A stretch of 37,290 nt of DNA from a bacterium (GTDB lineage: Bacteria > SM23-81 > DAOVCL01): contig JAOZPP010000028.1 in assembly GCA_029932675.1 (NCBI GenBank), positions 1 to 37,290 on the forward strand. The letters run 5' to 3'. Below the pieces are notes generated by a model, which saw nothing but the letters and a program-made list of their open reading frames with translations, was not told the DNA's origin and made no database searches. Shown here in pieces: positions 2,820 to 36,864 of the stretch; the stretch's first letter is position 1; the number at the start of each line of letters is the position of its first letter. Position numbers and translations under genes: made by a program.

Positions 2820-2937
2820 CCTTCCTCCTGGTAAAAGGTTTAAAGAACCGACTCTGATCAGGCTGCTAGTTGCTCCTTTTATCACCTCCTCTCCAATGTG
2901 TCTGGGAGCGACCCCAAGGCTGCCCTCCTGGCTGAAC

Positions 2938-3097
2938 TTAGCTCCCTTCGGTCGCTAACTTCTCCAGAGGGCCTCACTGGCCCTATGGCGCTCCGCAATC
3001 CTACGCTCGCTCGGATTGCTCCGCTGTCACCCTTAAAGGGGGCATGCCCCCTTTAAGACCCCCCACGTTTCGGAATTCTTAGAAATTCCGAAACGTC
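2938..3097. repeat. Dispersed intergenic repeat, copy 1, with perfect palindromes
   Basis: No gene is visible at 2834-3184. The segment holds an imperfect dyad (GCAATCC/GGATTGC), a perfect 26-base palindrome at 3032-3057 (half-site CTTAAAGGGGGCA) and a hairpin with 13-base perfect arms ACGTTTCGGAATT (3065-3077) and its complement (3084-3096) around CTTAGA. No U-run follows on either strand, so these are not simple terminators. A diverged copy of the block appears at 19303-19465. Confidence 0.55.
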
Positions 3098-3184
3098 AAG
3101 TTACCTTAGGGCAGATCAGGGCTCAGGTGGGCCCGTTGACCTCAGAGGAGGAGTACATGCCTTGCCCCAAGGGTGCTCTTCTCA

Positions 3185-28906: not shown

Positions 28907-29059
28907 TTTCACTCCTTTCTTGGTTTCAACTTTCAGCTTCACATCTGAAAAGCTCTTTATGTCTTGCATTTTGTCCCTCCTTCTAAGGCTAACGGCTACT
29001 GACCCAAAAATCTTCTAAGTAAACATCTTCATCACCTCCAGGATTCAACCCTCCCTGTG

Positions 29060-29316
29060 CTGTCAGGGCTCTGCCCTGACAGACCCCGCCAAGAGGTCAG
29101 TTCTGACGCTAACCTCTTTAGCACCATAATCCCCATGACTCCAAGTAGTCCTACATCTCTACCTCCTTCTTTGAGTTTTTGCACCCAGATTATACCCACA
29201 TTCTCAATCATCTGCGAAAATCTGCGTCCATCTGCGGTTCATTTCTGGGTTTATCACTGAGGCGTCAGAACCCCGATTCTGACGCAATCCTCGTGCTCTC
29301 AAGGCTCCTGCCTTGA
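29060..29316. repeat. Three hairpins of the covarying intergenic family
   Basis: 29060-29082: arms CTGTCAGGGC and GCCCTGACAG. 29262-29285: arms GCGTCAGAA and TTCTGACGC with loop CCCCGA. 29299-29316: arms TCAAGGC and GCCTTGA. None is followed by a U-run. The interval 28970-29623 holds no protein gene. Confidence 0.7.
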
Positions 29317-29353
29317 CAGTTTATGACTTGACACTTAAGTTTGTGAAAAACTC

Positions 29354-29483
29354 TTGCCTTTCCCCCCAACTTGCCCTATATTACAGAAAGGGCATAAGAA
29401 AGAGGGATATCCTCTTTCTTTGTGCTCGCGGGGGTTATCAGTTGGCCTTACTTGTCAGGTTGGCAACTGATAACCTCTTTTTA
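29354..29483 (+). ncRNA. Candidate small RNA with its own promoter and terminator
   Basis: TTGCCT (29354-29359), a 17-base spacer and TATATT (29377-29382) could start a transcript near 29389. It would contain the hairpin AAAGAGG/CCTCTTT (29399-29417) and end at a strong stem, GGTTATCAGTTG (29433-29444) paired with CAACTGATAACC (29464-29475), followed by TCTTTTTATATA. That gives an RNA of roughly 90 bases with no ORF of interest. It lies opposite to the flanking minus-strand genes. It matches no RNA family that I recognise. Confidence 0.4.
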
Positions 29484-29498
29484 TATATTCCCCACGTG

Positions 29499-29601
29499 CT
29501 GTCAAGGCTCCGCCCTGACAGATACCCCCATCTACCAACAGAGCTATCAGAACCCCGATTCTGACGCATTTCAGGTGCTGTCAGGAGTTACCTCCTGACA
29601 G
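29499..29601. repeat. Further hairpins of the covarying family
   Basis: 29499-29521: CTGTCAAGGC with GCCCTGACAG (one mismatch). 29547-29564: TCAGAA, loop CCCCGA, TTCTGA. 29578-29601: CTGTCAGGAG with CTCCTGACAG, loop TTAC. Confidence 0.65.
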
Positions 29602-29623
29602 TCCTACCCGAAGGCAGAAAGAC

Positions 29624-31153
29624 TTACCGCAAAAGCAGCATCTTCCTTGTCTGGCTGAACCTTCCTGCCTTAAGCTGATAGAAGTAGACTCCTGATGCTA
29701 CATCCATTCCATTGTTACTCTTCCCATCCCACACCACGGAATGTCTCCCAGGCTTCAACGCCTCATCCACCAGCGTCCTCACCTCCTGCCCTAAGATGTT
29801 GTAGACCTTTAGGGTGGTGCGGATAGGGGAATTCTTAATTCTCAATTCATAATTAATAATTGTGGTGGGGTTGAAGGGATTGGGATAGTTCTGTCCCAGC
29901 TCAAAGCCCCTTACCACCGCCGGATTCTCCCTCCAATCCTCTATCCCACTAAAGACGGTGTCTGAGGAGAAGTAGATGTCCTCACTAACTGAGTCTTTTG
30001 ATCCGTCCCAAGCCACGTAGAGCTCACCATCTCCTATTGCCTGAAGTGAAGCACGACCTGCTCCTACACGGCAGTCATCTACCTGAATATTAGGGCTGAG
30101 CCAGGTTTTACCACTGTCCTGGGACATAGAAAAGTAAACGTGGCTCATGTTCCCTCCAAAATCTGGACCTGCATTCCAGGCGACATAGAGCCTGCCCTGA
30201 TCATCAATGCTCAGGCAGGGATCAGTATATTGGTATATGGAGTCTGTGTTCACCTTCACCGTCCTGGTCCAGCTCCATCCCCCATTCCCCGAGCGAGAGA
30301 AATAGACACCCGTCGTATTGTTCCCTTGATAGGTCCAGACTACATATAGACCACCATTGCTGTCTACCACCAGGGAGGGATCATTTGCTATGCTTCCGTT
30401 AATATCATCATTGTTCACTTTCTTGCTCAGAGACCAGGTAGAGCCAGCATCTGCAGACTTGGAGAAATACAGATCCCATTTCACCCCACTCCGGAAATCT
30501 AACCAGACCACATAGATAACTCCCTTCTTATCCACAGCTATGTCACTCGCCAACTGAAGATTGGAAGGTGGGTAGTTTACCCTCACATTGGGAGTCCAAG
30601 TGGTCCCCGCATCTGTGGACATAGAAAAATAGATATCCCAATCCTCCCTGGTATCACTCCAGACTACATAGATCCATCCCTTATCATCCACAGCTAAGGC
30701 TGGGCCGTATGAGCTATGGAGACCATCATCAACCCTCACTGCCTGGGTCCAGGTTGTCCCCTTATCACAGGACATAGAGAAGTAGATCTCCCCCTTAGGC
30801 TCGTCGCTCCAGACAAAGTAGATATTGCCCAGGGTGTCTACTTCTAATTGGGGTTGAGTTGGTGTACCCCTGTCCGGGTCTATCATCCTGTTCTTCGTCC
30901 AAGTTCGGCCCCCATCAAAGGATGAGGAGAAGTAGATGTTGCACCTTCCGGTGATGTCTAAATTCCTCAGATCCAGCCAGGCCAGGTAGAGGTTGCCATC
31001 CCTGTCCACAGCCAGGGAAGGAGAAAACTGGTTTCTGGTGGTGGTATCATCATTCACCTTGATGCTGGGACCAAAGTTTACATCCTGGGCCAAAGCACTG
31101 GTCCAGCTAAAGACCACCAGCATTCCCAAGAGGCCAAACCATCTCATTCTCAT
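29624..31153 (-). CDS. Secreted Asp-box (BNR/sialidase-like) propeller protein with sorting domain
   Basis: 509 residues: signal peptide to A-L-A-Q, then a beta-propeller with about eight repeats of the form Y-F-S-x-S-x-D-x-G-x-T-W alternating with D-x-x-G-x-x-Y-V-V-W-x-D, and the sorting module ending K-M-L-L-L-R. The Asp boxes indicate a sialidase-type fold, but no enzymatic residues can be assigned, so it may be a binding or scaffold protein. Start 31153 (ATG after AAGGTGG; the ATG at 31147 has better spacing and is possible). The tag DNA is nearly the same as that of the upstream cohesin-like gene. Confidence 0.85.
   Translation of the reverse strand: MRMRWFGLLGMLVVFSWTSALAQDVNFGPSIKVNDDTTTRNQFSPSLAVDRDGNLYLAWLDLRNLDITGRCNIYFSSSFDGGRTWTKNRMIDPDRGTPTQPQLEVDTLGNIYFVWSDEPKGEIYFSMSCDKGTTWTQAVRVDDGLHSSYGPALAVDDKGWIYVVWSDTREDWDIYFSMSTDAGTTWTPNVRVNYPPSNLQLASDIAVDKKGVIYVVWLDFRSGVKWDLYFSKSADAGSTWSLSKKVNNDDINGSIANDPSLVVDSNGGLYVVWTYQGNNTTGVYFSRSGNGGWSWTRTVKVNTDSIYQYTDPCLSIDDQGRLYVAWNAGPDFGGNMSHVYFSMSQDSGKTWLSPNIQVDDCRVGAGRASLQAIGDGELYVAWDGSKDSVSEDIYFSSDTVFSGIEDWRENPAVVRGFELGQNYPNPFNPTTIINYELRIKNSPIRTTLKVYNILGQEVRTLVDEALKPGRHSVVWDGKSNNGMDVASGVYFYQLKAGRFSQTRKMLLLR
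29827..29861 (-). repeat. Seven-base-periodic DNA inside the sorting domain
   Basis: Five seven-base units all beginning AATT (for example AATTATG, AATTGAG, AATTAAG) encode I-I-N-Y-E-L-R-I-K-N-S of the tag. The identical 35 bases occur at 31453-31487. Confidence 0.7.
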
Positions 31154-31213
31154 TCCACCTTCTTTCTCTAAAAAGTTATTTGAATCCACCACCCAACGAG
31201 GTTCCCACAGAGG

Positions 31214-31235
31214 CGTCAGAACCCCGATTCTGACG
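31214..31235. repeat. Hairpin of the covarying family
   Basis: Arms CGTCAGAA and TTCTGACG with loop CCCCGA, in the 96-base space between the propeller and cohesin-like genes. Confidence 0.65.
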
Positions 31236-31249
31236 TCCTGCCTATCTCC

Positions 31250-32077
31250 TTACCGCAAAAGCACCATCTTCCTTGTCTGACTGAACCTTCCTGCCTTAAG
31301 CTGATAGAAGTAGATACCTGATGCTACATCCATCCCATTGTCACTCTTCCCATCCCACACCACGGAATATCTCCCAGGCTTCAACTCCTCATCAACCAGC
31401 GTCCTCACCACCTGCCCCAAGATGTTGTAGACCTTCAGGGTGGTGTGGAGGGGGGAATTCTTAATTCTCAATTCATAATTAATAATTGTGGTGGGGTTGA
31501 AGGGATTGGGATAGTTCTGTCCCAGCTCAAATTGACGGGGTTGGCTATACCCTGGTTGCTCCCTACAGCCTTCCTTATGGATGTAGAAGGTGCCATCAAT
31601 ACCATGATACCAACTTACTGGCCACCACCCTACATCCTTTATGTCCAGGATGGTGGAATCGGGTGGGATAAGATCCGGATTAACATCCAGAATTACTTCA
31701 AAAAGAGGCACCTCCTCTGATTGAGCCGGGAGGGTTATACCGCCCGTCATACTGAGAACACAACCCACATAGAGGTGATTCCCCTGGACATCCACCTCCC
31801 ACAGGAAGGGATTTGAGCATATAGAATCTATTAGCGCTCCCTTAATGGCAGCGGTGTCCGCAAAGCTCAACTTTGTAGAGTCAACCTCCAGCTCAAAATT
31901 AAAAGCCTCTACTTCCTGATTGGCCTCATAGAAGACTGGGATTTTGACTCCCTTCTCCCCTGGGTATCCCCCGGCTGACCCAAACCAATAGAGCATCTCA
32001 AACTCATATTGCCCCTGGGCCAAGCTAAAGGGCAATGCCAGGAGGAGAAGGACCAATAGGAATTTTATCTGTTTCAT
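31250..32077 (-). CDS. Secreted cohesin-like domain protein with sorting domain
   Basis: 275 residues. Signal peptide (M-K-Q-I-K-F-L-L ... L-A-Q-G), a single beta-sandwich of about 140 residues with cohesin-type features (V-K-I-P-V-F-Y-E-A-N, V-E-A-F-N-F-E-L-E-V-D-S-T-K-L-S-F, V-P-L-F-E-V-I-L-D-V), then the sorting module ending K-M-V-L-L-R. ATG 32077 follows GGAGGAAAGCT. Cohesin-like sandwiches bind partner dockerins or sugars; no dockerin is seen here. Next to the propeller gene in the same direction, 96 bases apart, so possibly cotranscribed. Confidence 0.82.
   Translation of the reverse strand: MKQIKFLLVLLLLALPFSLAQGQYEFEMLYWFGSAGGYPGEKGVKIPVFYEANQEVEAFNFELEVDSTKLSFADTAAIKGALIDSICSNPFLWEVDVQGNHLYVGCVLSMTGGITLPAQSEEVPLFEVILDVNPDLIPPDSTILDIKDVGWWPVSWYHGIDGTFYIHKEGCREQPGYSQPRQFELGQNYPNPFNPTTIINYELRIKNSPLHTTLKVYNILGQVVRTLVDEELKPGRYSVVWDGKSDNGMDVASGIYFYQLKAGRFSQTRKMVLLR
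31453..31487 (-). repeat. Seven-base-periodic DNA, second copy
   Basis: Identical to 29827-29861 and part of a 79-base stretch (31453-31531) that is the same as 29827-29905. Confidence 0.7.
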
Positions 32078-32246
32078 AGCTTTCCTCCTTACTTCTGATT
32101 CTCCTCTTACTATAGCAACCTCCGCCTTATACGGATTAACTTCCTTACCACCTCCTTTCTTCCTACTGTTTCATCCTCCCAGGACTTTAGCACAAAACCA
32201 AGGGGCATTTCAACTCTTTTTTGAAGAGTGCCTAGAAATTTTCCCT

Positions 32247-32429
32247 CTACCAGTCAGTGGGATCTCTGCTCTCCTCCTCCCTCCCTTTTCTCACCTCCTC
32301 CTCCAACACCTCTAAGATCCTCTGCCACACCCCCTTCTTCTTTTTCTCCTTCTTTGGGGGCCTAATCAGTTTAAGCTCCAGCCTTAATTCTGGCTTTGGC
32401 TTTCTATCATCAGATTCCATAAGGCTCAC
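32247..32429 (-). CDS. Small highly charged protein, unknown
   Basis: 60 residues, GTG start with GGAGGAGGA just upstream (an in-frame ATG lies three codons later). The middle is lysine-rich (P-P-K-K-E-K-K-K-K-G-V-W), followed by an amphipathic acidic helix (I-L-E-V-L-E-E-E-V-R-K-G-R-E-E-E). No signal peptide. I do not recognise it. It ends 169 bases before the cohesin-like gene. Its ribosome site lies at the edge of the tandem repeat; the second repeat copy keeps the GGAGG but not the start codon. Could be a chance ORF. Confidence 0.4.
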   Translation of the reverse strand: MSLMESDDRKPKPELRLELKLIRPPKKEKKKKGVWQRILEVLEEEVRKGREEESRDPTDW

Positions 32430-33050
32430 TCCTCCTCCTTCACCGAGCCGTCAGAACCCCGAATCTGACGGCAGGCAGGTGGCAGAATCGGGGTTCTGCC
32501 ACCCCATTTCCCTCCGTCAGGGCAGGAGTCCCGGCGGGCCCCAGAGGCCCAATAAGGCCCGCCAGGTTGCTAGGCTGCGAGGGCAACAGGAATTCTGTAG
32601 TGGCCACCCATCCTACGGCATGACATCACCGATAATCTCCCGGGGGACCCACAAGGAGATTATCGGGCCACACTCTACCGGCCCTCGCTTGCCTCTTTTC
32701 CATCTTCTGTCAGGGCAGGTAGGTAGTGGGTGATAGGGCTAACTCCTCCTCCTTCACCGAGCCGTCAGAACCCCGATTCTGACGGCAAGGGTAGGTGGCA
32801 GAATCGGGGTTCTGCCACCCCATTTCCCTCCGTCAGGGCAGGAGTCCCGGCGGGCCCCAGAGGCCCAATAAGGCCCGCCAGGTTGCTAGGCTGCGAGGGC
32901 AACAGGAATTCTGTAGTGGCCACCCATCCTACGGCATGACATCACCGATAATCTCCCGGGGGACCATAAGGAGACTATCGGGTCACACTCTACCCTGCCC
33001 TCGCTTTGTCTCTTTTCCATCTTCCGTCAGGGCAGGTAGGTAGTGGGTGG
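32427..33050. repeat. Tandem duplication, two units of about 314 bases
   Basis: The segment from 32427 recurs from 32741 with few changes. Each unit carries the same set of dyads: GCCGTCAGAA-type (32447-32472; 32761-32786), GGTGGCAGAA with loop TCGGGG (32478-32503; 32794-32819), GGCGGGCC/GGCCCGCC, and CGATAATCTCC/GGAGATTATCG (one mismatch in unit 2). The ORFs crossing it repeat with the units and are not genes. Confidence 0.85.
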
Positions 33051-33283
33051 TAGAACCGGGGTTCTACCACCTCATTTAACCGCAGATTCTACCGAGCCGT
33101 CAGATGCCCTCATCTGACGGTGTGGTTCTGGTGGCAGGAACCTCATTTATGATCGGAGGGGTAGGCAGGAGGAAGCCTACGGGCATCTCCGCTATGTTTG
33201 GTGGCAGAATCGGGGTTCTGCCACCTCATTACCTCATTTAGGGGTGGGACAGGGCAGGAGCCCCGTCCCACCACCCCTTCCTT
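33046..33283. repeat. Four more hairpins downstream of the tandem repeat
   Basis: 33046-33071: GGTGGTAGAA, loop CCGGGG, TTCTACCACC. 33097-33120: CCGTCAGATG, loop CCCT, CATCTGACGG. 33200-33225: GGTGGCAGAA, loop TCGGGG, TTCTGCCACC. 33243-33272: GGTGGGAC/GTCCCACC with a long loop. The stretch 33051-33552 contains no gene. Confidence 0.75.
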
Positions 33284-33552: not shown

Positions 33553-36364
33553 TCAGCTCTTTGTAATCCCAAGCTTTTTCATCTTACTTTGGAGGGTTCC
33601 CCTTGGTATCCCCAGGATATTCGCTGCCTTAGCAATTTTCCAATTGCTCTTTCTTAATGCCCCTAAACACTCCTCCCTCTCAACAAAGGCCAATTTCTCC
33701 GGAAGAGAAGCTGTTCCCTCTGAAAGAGCCTGGGGTTCTTTCCAGGGAACTCCCACCAGTAGCAGGTCTGCGGTGATCTCCCCTTCCTCACCCTTTATAT
33801 GGCTTACTGCTACCTCAATGGCCCGCTTCAACTCCCTGACATTCCCTGGCCAGTCGTATTCCATCAACCCCTCTAAAGCACCAGGAGTAATACCCACCAC
33901 CCTCTTTTTATACTTCTCCCCAAACAGCTCCATAAAATGCTCACAGAGAAGCGGTATGTCACCCTTCCTCTCCCTCAATGGCGGAAGCCTCAAAGTTACC
34001 CCCTCTATCCGATAGTAAAGATCATTCCGAAAAGAACCCTCCACCATAGCCCGGTGGAGATCCTTGTTGGTGGCCACTATCACCCGCACATCCACCTTGA
34101 CCTCCTCTGTCCCCCCTACCCTGCGAAAGCTCTGGGTCTCCAGAAAACGAAGGAGCTTTGACTGCATAGCAGGGCTCATATCCCCTATCTCATCCAGAAA
34201 TACCGTCCCCCCATCGGCTACCTCAAACAACCCCTTGTGTTGGGTCCTGGCATCGGTGAAGGCACCCTTCTCATAGCCAAAAAGCTCTGACTCTAAGAGG
34301 TTGTCAGACATATTGGCACAATTTATGGCCATAAAGGGCCCCTCCTTCCGCGCCCCAACGGAATGGATGAACTTGGCTATTACCTCCTTCCCTGTGCCAG
34401 TCTCCCCCCTCAATTATAATCGGGTAGTCTGTATCTTTGATCCTCTCCACCTCATCCAATACCCTGAGCATCTGGAGGTCCTGGGTGACTATTTCCCCGG
34501 AGAGCCTGAGCTGTCTCTTCAGGGAGGCCAACTCTTTCTCCAACTCCCTTTGCCTCTGCTCGGCTATCGCCTTGGCTACCCTCTCGGAGAGAAGATAGAA
34601 GAGGTCAAGCTCCTTATCCAAGAAAGGTTCCTTCCCCTTACCCCGATCCACATAGAGGTAACCCTCTATCCTCTCCCCATTCCCATAGGGGATCAACATC
34701 AGGCTACCAGCCCCCACAGCGAAGAACCGCTCATCCAGGGAGCTATCATAGAGGATAAAGGGACTGCCCACCTCAAAGCCATCCCTGTCTGCCAACAGGG
34801 AGAGAAGCCCCTTGACCTCCCCCTTGCTGAGGTTATGGCTCGCCCCCAGCTTCATCTCCTTATCTCCATCTGCAGCGTAGGCCACAAGGCCCCTGTCTGC
34901 TCCCAAAACCTTAATCACCTGGCCAAAGACCTCCTCCAAATCCCCTGATGGCAACCCTTGCAAAAACTCATACTTCCTGGAGGGAAACCTCTTCAGCCTT
35001 TGGTTAAGCTCAAGTTTTAGGGCTTGCACCTCCTCCAGCTTCTCAGCCTCTCCCTTGCCCTTCAGTAGTTTCTCCACCTCCTCCAAGGTCTCTATCGCTT
35101 TCTTGAAGGAAGGCTCCACCTTAGCAATCTGGAGCAGGGCCAAAACCTGGTAGAACTCTGCCCCTTGGATTTGGGCAAAGAGCCTCTGGGCTTCCCGTAA
35201 GGGGTCATCCCTCCCGGTAAGCTCCCCCTGAGCTAAAAGAGTGTGTGCCAACTCAAACCTGTCCTCCAGGGAGCGCAAGACCTCAACCGACTTCTCAAAG
35301 TTGGCATTCGCAGCCTTAGCATCACCTTTGGCCTGGGCGAGTCTCCCCATTGTGCGATAACAGCAGCCCTCTTCAAATCTGTCCCCTAAGGATTGGGAGA
35401 TTCGGAGGGCCTCCTGGACGCATTCTGAAGCCTCATCAAGGTTTTTTCCCTCAGATATAAGAAGGTCTGCTCTCCTTCTCTGCACTTGGTTGATCAGGTC
35501 ACCTTGCGGAGCTATCTTTCTGCCTATCTCCAGCGTCCTCTGATAATACCCCTTCGCCTTCTCAAGCTGGCCCCTCTCGGCGGCCAGATCACCAAGGGAT
35601 TCCCAAACCATTGCACTCTCCCTGGGGTAGGTCTGGCTCAGACCCTCTGCTCTCTGCAATAGCTCCTCGGCCTCAGGGAAATTCCGCTGCATAATGAGCA
35701 ACCGAGCAAGGGCAATAGCCCTCCTGGCGATCTCCAGGCTATCCCCTATCTCCTCATAGAGCTTCAGGCTCTTCCTCAGCATATCAGAGGCTAAAGGCCA
35801 TTCCCCTGTGAAAATCCGGCAAGCTCCCAGGTTGCCCCTGAGCATAGCCTCCTGGGCCTTATCCCCCTTATTCTGATGGCAGAGATCAAGAGCCTCTGTG
35901 AGATGCTCTATCGCTTCCTTTATGCGACCACTCAGAAAACAAGCTCTACCTAACGTATTGAGGACTTGAACCTTCCTCCTTCCATTCTCCATTCTGTCAA
36001 ATTCCGAAAGTGCATTTCTCAAATATCTGAGGGCAGCACTTGCCTGCCCTAACCCTAAGTGCATCCGCCCCAATATCCATTCAATTGCCCCGATTTGCCC
36101 GTGTCTGTCGGTGAATTTTAATACCTCGTATGCGGCCTTGGCTGTTTCGGTATCGTACCTACCTAACTGCTCCTCGGCAAAGGCTAACCTCACCTGTAGC
36201 TCCGCCCAATCCAGATCATTTTCTCCCGGAGTATACCCCTGGGAGAAGACCTCTATCTCCTCCACAACCTGCGCATACTCCCTCTGCCTAAGCAGGATTT
36301 CAACCCTTTCCTTCAGTTCCCTCAATGCCACCTCTTCCTGCCGTGGCTTTGTCCTGGCTTCCAT
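33553..36364 (-). pseudogene. TPR-GAF-sigma54 activator (AAA+, Fis-type HTH), frameshifted in Walker A
   Basis: Two overlapping frames form one regulator of about 935 residues. The first part (start 36364 after GGAGGTG; 36379 also possible) has about ten TPR repeats (residues 1-400), then a GAF-like domain (about 470-600, A-D-R-G-L-V-A-Y). The second frame carries the sigma54 AAA+ domain: [17 protein letters not shown] for contact with sigma54, F-L-D-E-I-G-D-M, and a Fis-type HTH ([15 protein letters not shown]). The frames meet at six consecutive G (34404-34409): five would restore I-I-I-E-G-E-T-G-T-G-K. Everything else is intact. It could be a sequencing or assembly error, a recent mutation or a slippage switch. 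No receiver domain; TPR and GAF suggest a peptide or small-molecule signal. Confidence 0.85.
34404..34409 (-). other. Six-G run at the frame break
   Basis: The run lies within the codons for E-G-E-T of Walker A. One base fewer gives an uninterrupted activator; with six the first frame ends near 34304 after a non-homologous tail. Confidence 0.8.
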
Positions 36365-36381
36365 CCTATCCACCTCCATCC

Positions 36382-36708: not shown

Positions 36709-36764
36709 CTTACCATCACCTCACAAGGGGGGAGAATGAAGAATGAAAAACCTTTTTCACCGAG

Positions 36765-36864
36765 CCGTCAGAACCCCGGTTCTGGCGGTAACCCGGTGGC
36801 AGAATCGGGGTTCTGCCACCTCATCTAACCGCCAATTCTTCTTCGTCAGGGCAGGAACCCTGAC
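36765..36864. repeat. Three hairpins in the regulator leader
   Basis: 36765-36788: CCGTCAGAA, loop CCCCGG, TTCTGGCGG (one wobble). 36795-36820: GGTGGCAGAA, loop TCGGGG, TTCTGCCACC. 36845-36864: GTCAGGG/CCCTGAC. All lie in the roughly 200-base transcribed leader. Confidence 0.75.

Follow-up and report, generated by a model that had tools for sequence, protein, structure and literature searches.

Tagged intergenic hairpins of a bacterial genome as probable REP elements, many paired as REPINs and tied to RAYT transposases

Described REP systems and the hairpins of the window

REPs and BIMEs, together with the transposase TnpA-REP (REP-associated tyrosine transposase, RAYT), are known from Enterobacteria and other bacteria (PMC2817692, PMC6006769). 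They are made up of a 5' tag, GT[A/G]G, and a hairpin, are present in high copy number between genes and form inverted dimers, and the RAYT gene has REPs on both of its sides. The preservation of REP palindromes through complementary changes has already been described (PMC2817692), and covarying REP stems are also reported in PMC3733652. In the REPINs of Pseudomonas, two REPs in inverted orientation and not the single REP are what is repeated (PMC3116915). The RAYTs of subclass 2.4 have an in-frame, REP-derived insert between the HUH and Tyr motifs, and residues W94, Q95 and R104 of the E. coli TnpA-REP have been placed in the region that recognises GTAG (PMC6006769). A further group, the CGTC-tagged REPs, is palindromic and dimeric with a tag at one end, starts with CGTC, TGTC or CCTC followed by A-T pairs and has no dedicated transposase (PMC3733652).

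In the current analysis we have examined a group of short hairpins in a window of 37,290 nucleotides (the whole stretch of DNA considered). They resemble the systems above in all the listed features of the enterobacterial REPs other than the tag, which is YGAG in one family (A) and mostly GTGCT in a second (B). The pairs of family A are inverted as in the Pseudomonas REPINs but differ from them in that the two members have different stems and are only ~4 nt apart. The hairpins are, with high probability, REP elements of which many are paired head-to-head as REPINs (BIME-like units), with families tied to RAYTs. This was one of three options offered in a sequence-only reading of the window, as a REP-like mobile repeat, and it is the one borne out by the tag and hairpin, the head-to-head dimers, the multicopy families restricted to one genus and a RAYT flanked by the same repeats. 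An assignment to the CGTC-tagged superfamily was rejected, since the tag and the first stem pairs do not fit and family A has a linked RAYT.

Tags, stems and head-to-head pairs

At least twelve hairpins of a common plan had been noted in the region 29060-33225, and a hairpin scan of the window has identified twelve perfect ones (stem of at least 7 bp) there, whose stem letters agree with those that had been quoted. One imperfect copy begins at 29538, and two more hairpins form a pair at 36759-36823, beyond this region (Table 1). The common plan does not hold for all of them, because the list of stems mixes two families with different tags; the GTCAGGG and GTCAGGA hairpins of that list belong to family B. 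Copies of family A, aligned by the tag, have a one-sided 5'-YGAG, a stem of ~10 bp and a loop that is mostly CCCCGA, with GCCCTC, TCCCAA and others also represented. The main stems of this family are GCCGTCAGAA, GGTGGCAGAA and GGCGTCAGAA, whose first G is the last G of the tag; this final G is able to pair with the base after the stem. Family B has the tag 5'-GTGCT in most copies and GTGGT in a few, and its stems are of the types GTCAGGG.., GTCAGGAG.. and TCAAGGC... The canonical GT[A/G]G at the 5' foot (GTAG or GTGG) is found in no copy of family A and is missing from most of family B.

Table 1. Positions of REP hairpins of families A and B in the window
Feature	Position	Strand	Evidence
Family A REP, TGAG tag, stem GCGTCAGAA	29258..29289	+	R1 46.1 bits
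Family A REP, imperfect, AGAG tag, stem CTATCAGAA	29540..29571	+	R1 32.0 bits
Family A REP, AGAG tag	31209..31240	+	R1 43.2 bits
Family A REP, left end of head-to-head pair, CGAG tag, CCGTC stem	32444..32475	+	R1 41.8 bits
Family A REP, right end, GTGGC stem, pairs with 32444..32475	32475..32506	-	R1 39.1 bits
Family A REP, left end of head-to-head pair	32758..32789	+	R1 47.7 bits
Family A REP, right end, pairs with 32758..32789	32791..32822	-	R1 39.4 bits
Family A REP, stem GTGGTAGAA	33043..33074	-	R1 42.6 bits
Family A REP, stem CCGTCAGAT, loop GCCCTC	33093..33124	+	R1 41.3 bits
Family A REP, GTGGC stem	33197..33228	-	R1 48.9 bits, best in the genome
Family A REP, left end of head-to-head pair outside 29060-33225	36761..36792	+	R1 36.9 bits
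Family A REP, right end, pairs with 36761..36792	36792..36823	-	R1 47.0 bits
Family B REP, tag GTGCT, stem GTCAGGGC	29057..29082	+	pattern match, sequence
Family B REP variant GTGCTCTCAAGGCTCCTGCCTTGACAG	29293..29319	+	sequence
Family B REP, imperfect stem GTGCTGTCAAGGCTCCGCCCTGACAG	29496..29521	+	sequence
Family B REP GTGCTGTCAGGAGTTACCTCCTGACAG	29575..29601	+	pattern match, hairpin

The region 32434-33063 of the window consists of a segment duplicated in tandem (period ~316 bp); it spans family A dimers and also contains a 12-bp inverted repeat, CCGATAATCTCC/GGAGATTATCGG.

The covariation of the stems is genuine. A set of 69 copies was collected by the inner core AGAACCCCGATTCT alone, with at most one mismatch and blind to the tag and the outer stem, and in this set the outer pairs 2, 4 and 5, which are free to vary, are Watson-Crick in 66, 59 and 62 copies, above all the maxima reached by shuffling (means 32-34, maxima 44-46). 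The letters A and G of the tag are kept in 64/69 and 65/69 of these copies, chosen regardless of the tag, and the opposite side of the same 69 copies reveals no conservation. The hairpin thus has an unpaired tag on its 5' side only, and the conserved part is one-sided, ending 1-2 nt before the tag. An alignment of 46 rows gives a similar picture, with 95.9% of the cells paired (shuffle mean 80.6%), six of the ten pairs changed on both sides, a covariation score of 0.413 against 0.156, and G-U pairs tolerated at the foot of the stem; as a paired inner stem and the tag were the criteria for choosing these rows, the test on 69 copies is the cleaner one. Most of the variation lies between a small number of stem types, CCGTC and GTGGC foremost among them, and the independent events are therefore fewer than the cell counts suggest. 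The proposal that the structure and not the letters is kept is true to that extent, these types being for the most part the left and right ends of a single element.

R1, the covariance model of family A, was applied to stretches of this genome that total 723 kb (~0.72 Mb), half of these stretches having been chosen for REPs. Among 43 neighbouring pairs within 150 nt, 29 stand head-to-head with the tags outwards and a spacing that peaks at 4 nt, an excess with a p value of 6e-9 if the four orientations are equally likely. Eighteen of these dimers combine CCGTC with GTGGC, three combine CGGTC with GTGGC and eight have a divergent stem; same-type dimers (CCGTC with CCGTC or GTGGC with GTGGC) are found in 0 of 29. 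These dimers make the repeated unit an asymmetric REPIN, and much of the stem covariation arises because the two ends of one element differ. Neighbouring loops are indeed complementary, as had been pointed out, because copies of one hairpin stand inverted; the pairing of loops with each other that had been suggested was rejected as this by-product of orientation explains it.

Copy number and placement in the genomes

R1 recognises at least 144 copies in this genome, and the one other genome of the genus that was covered (G001) has at least 132. Both counts are lower bounds, the best 150 candidates per genome having been scored. Among the best 150 candidates per genome none is a copy in G002 and G003 of the same phylum or in the more distant G004, G005 and G058. 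The exact core CAGAATCGGGGTTCTG has 61 occurrences in the 3.03-Mb genome, with 0 for the reversed control, and occurs in no other of 116 genomes.

The hairpins are intergenic, as had been proposed: of 111 copies, 90 fall in space free of any ORF of 90 aa or more, though such space makes up only 12% of the bases, and the copies inside ORFs are in short ones, with lengths of 93-158 aa in the cases where the ORF could be named. Divergent gaps have 5 of 91 copies against ~16 expected by base pairs, and convergent gaps 18 of 91 against ~13. No constant neighbour gene has been found for the hairpins. The further proposal that they sit only beside secreted-protein and regulator genes does not stand; of 39 REP-bearing gaps, 21 are next to genes for secreted proteins with a C-terminal tail or for Fis-type regulators, where gap length predicts 14.4 (p 0.009), a weak signal from a partly REP-selected sample, and the enrichment at secreted genes shrank after allowing for gap length.

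Large regulators ending in a Fis-type helix-turn-helix often adjoin REP-bearing gaps (L080, L144, L149, L151, L152, L153 and 33553-36379 of the window), and the one in the window appears to be broken into two frames (33553-34413 and 34304-36379). Two adjacent genes for secreted proteins with a C-terminal sorting tail have 3' ends (29623-29905 and 31249-31531) that are 95% identical over 283 bp, a likeness that suggests a recent duplication or gene conversion. Elsewhere in the window (2934-3106) there is a dispersed repeat, ~175 bp long, which contains two inverted repeats of 13 bp, both perfect (3032-3057 and 3065-3096). Roughly twelve long copies of it occur in this genome, besides many fragments, and G001 has copies of up to 91% identity. 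Possible readings are a further miniature mobile element and a structured RNA.

A comparison of five syntenic gaps reveals more sequence and more REPs in G001 than in this genome. The cleanest of them (L154:10963-11007) has 44 bp here and 212 bp with a REP pair in G001, and at another a decayed REP copy is kept in this genome. A base-exact empty or insertion site was sought at all five gaps and none could be defined, the flanks being too diverged between both species.

Linked transposases, rival explanations and meaning

Three Y1_Tnp genes have been identified in this genome. One of them, RAYT-A, encodes a protein of 180 aa (L033:120-662, contig C72) that scores 118.9 bits with the NCBIfam family NF047646 of REP-associated tyrosine transposases (cut-off 80 bits) and matches the structure of E. 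coli TnpA-REP, 4er8 (E-value 3.7e-10). Its HYH motif and the catalytic Tyr, Y142, are intact, and pairs of family A hairpins flank the gene on both sides within ~30 nt. A search of a genome-contig database with the RAYT has revealed only four distant relatives, of 29-54% identity in their best segments. A second RAYT of this genome is linked to a hairpin family with GTAG.

A RAYT of G001 (L093:1937-2626) has family B hairpins at both ends. It possesses an in-frame PDTTGT repeat made of REP-derived units of 18 bp between the HUH and Tyr motifs; it is like subclass 2.4 in this insert and differs from it in tag. Three further RAYTs of G001 (L095, L096 and L040) are each flanked by a hairpin family of their own, one with a GTAG tag, one with long AACCTCCCGCAGGTT arms and one with CTGTGGATG stems. 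RAYT-A was not found in the incomplete draft of G001, despite the copies of family A there, and the family B RAYT was not found in the incomplete draft of this genome (G000). Judged from this linkage in sequence, family A is paired with the RAYT of contig C72 and family B with that of G001.

The positions of W94, Q95 and R104 were read by eye from the motif and, for RAYT-A, from the match to 4er8. They are occupied by W-Q-R in three GTAG-linked RAYTs (L032, L095 and L099), W-M-R in the GTAG-linked L057, W-A-K in RAYT-A and W-E-N in the family B RAYT. These differences are consistent with recoded tags, the examples being few. We tentatively propose, as a possibility short of an even chance, that several RAYTs coexist in the genus, each matched to a separate REP family and tag (YGAG, GTGC/GTGG, GTAG and others), and that the residues reading the tag have changed in step.

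By analogy with the known biology of RAYTs, a REP strand that becomes single-stranded, on the lagging-strand template or in a transcription bubble, would fold into the hairpin, whose shape and tag would be recognised by the HUH tyrosine transposase. The tyrosine would then cut beside the tag, and the dimer could be copied or moved in trans to other sites. Selection would remove the copies inside genes, leaving intergenic survivors, with divergent promoter gaps occupied less often than the space downstream of genes. The demand for a paired stem in recognition would give rise to compensatory changes, while the left and right ends of one element would keep their different stems.

The placement of the copies could also be accounted for by RNA elements at transcript ends, either terminators without a U-run or stabilisers of mRNA 3' ends, whose function keeps the pairing. 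The scarcity in divergent gaps, the somewhat raised number in convergent ones and the tolerated G-U pairs agree with such a role, but a one-sided tag, head-to-head heterodimers, clustering around a RAYT and a range of one genus are unexpected of terminators, and we regard it as unlikely to be the main explanation. The hairpins lack U-runs, as the sequence-only reading had stated (TTTT within 9 nt of the stem on either side in 5/111 copies), and intrinsic terminators were rejected as the main reading on this count. A role at transcript ends may be secondary to the identity as REPs rather than an alternative to it.

Another of the options raised earlier, a DNA signal bound by a protein, which would here control the secreted-protein and regulator genes nearby, is still less probable. 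It draws on the enrichment of REP-bearing gaps beside these genes, but the effect is small and 18 of the 39 gaps touch neither class; some of the genes look like paralogues and may carry REPs along on duplication, and divergent promoter gaps are avoided. The remaining option, a new class of structured RNA with kissing CCCCGA and TCGGGG loops, is suggested by the covarying stems and the complementary loops of neighbours, and we consider it very improbable: the loops vary and their complementarity follows from inversion, conservation stops at the tag and hairpin, neighbours are mostly inverted heterodimers beside no constant gene, and in an Rfam search of the window only tRNAs reached the gathering score. 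The reading as REPs and REPINs with RAYTs fits every tested feature except the canonical tag.

The hairpins thus belong to a type of selfish DNA that is already known, here distinguished by its unusual recognition tag, and are not a new RNA class. They represent REP/RAYT systems whose tags are recoded, in a bacterial phylum that has been sampled only thinly. For annotation they carry the warning that a repeated hairpin with strongly covarying stems need not be a functional RNA, as the two ends of a mobile dimer can produce such covariation. The several pairs of RAYT and REP in one genus provide material for testing how the transposase reads the tag. If the residues and tags have indeed changed together, the matched changes would form a natural series for reading out a tag-recognition code.
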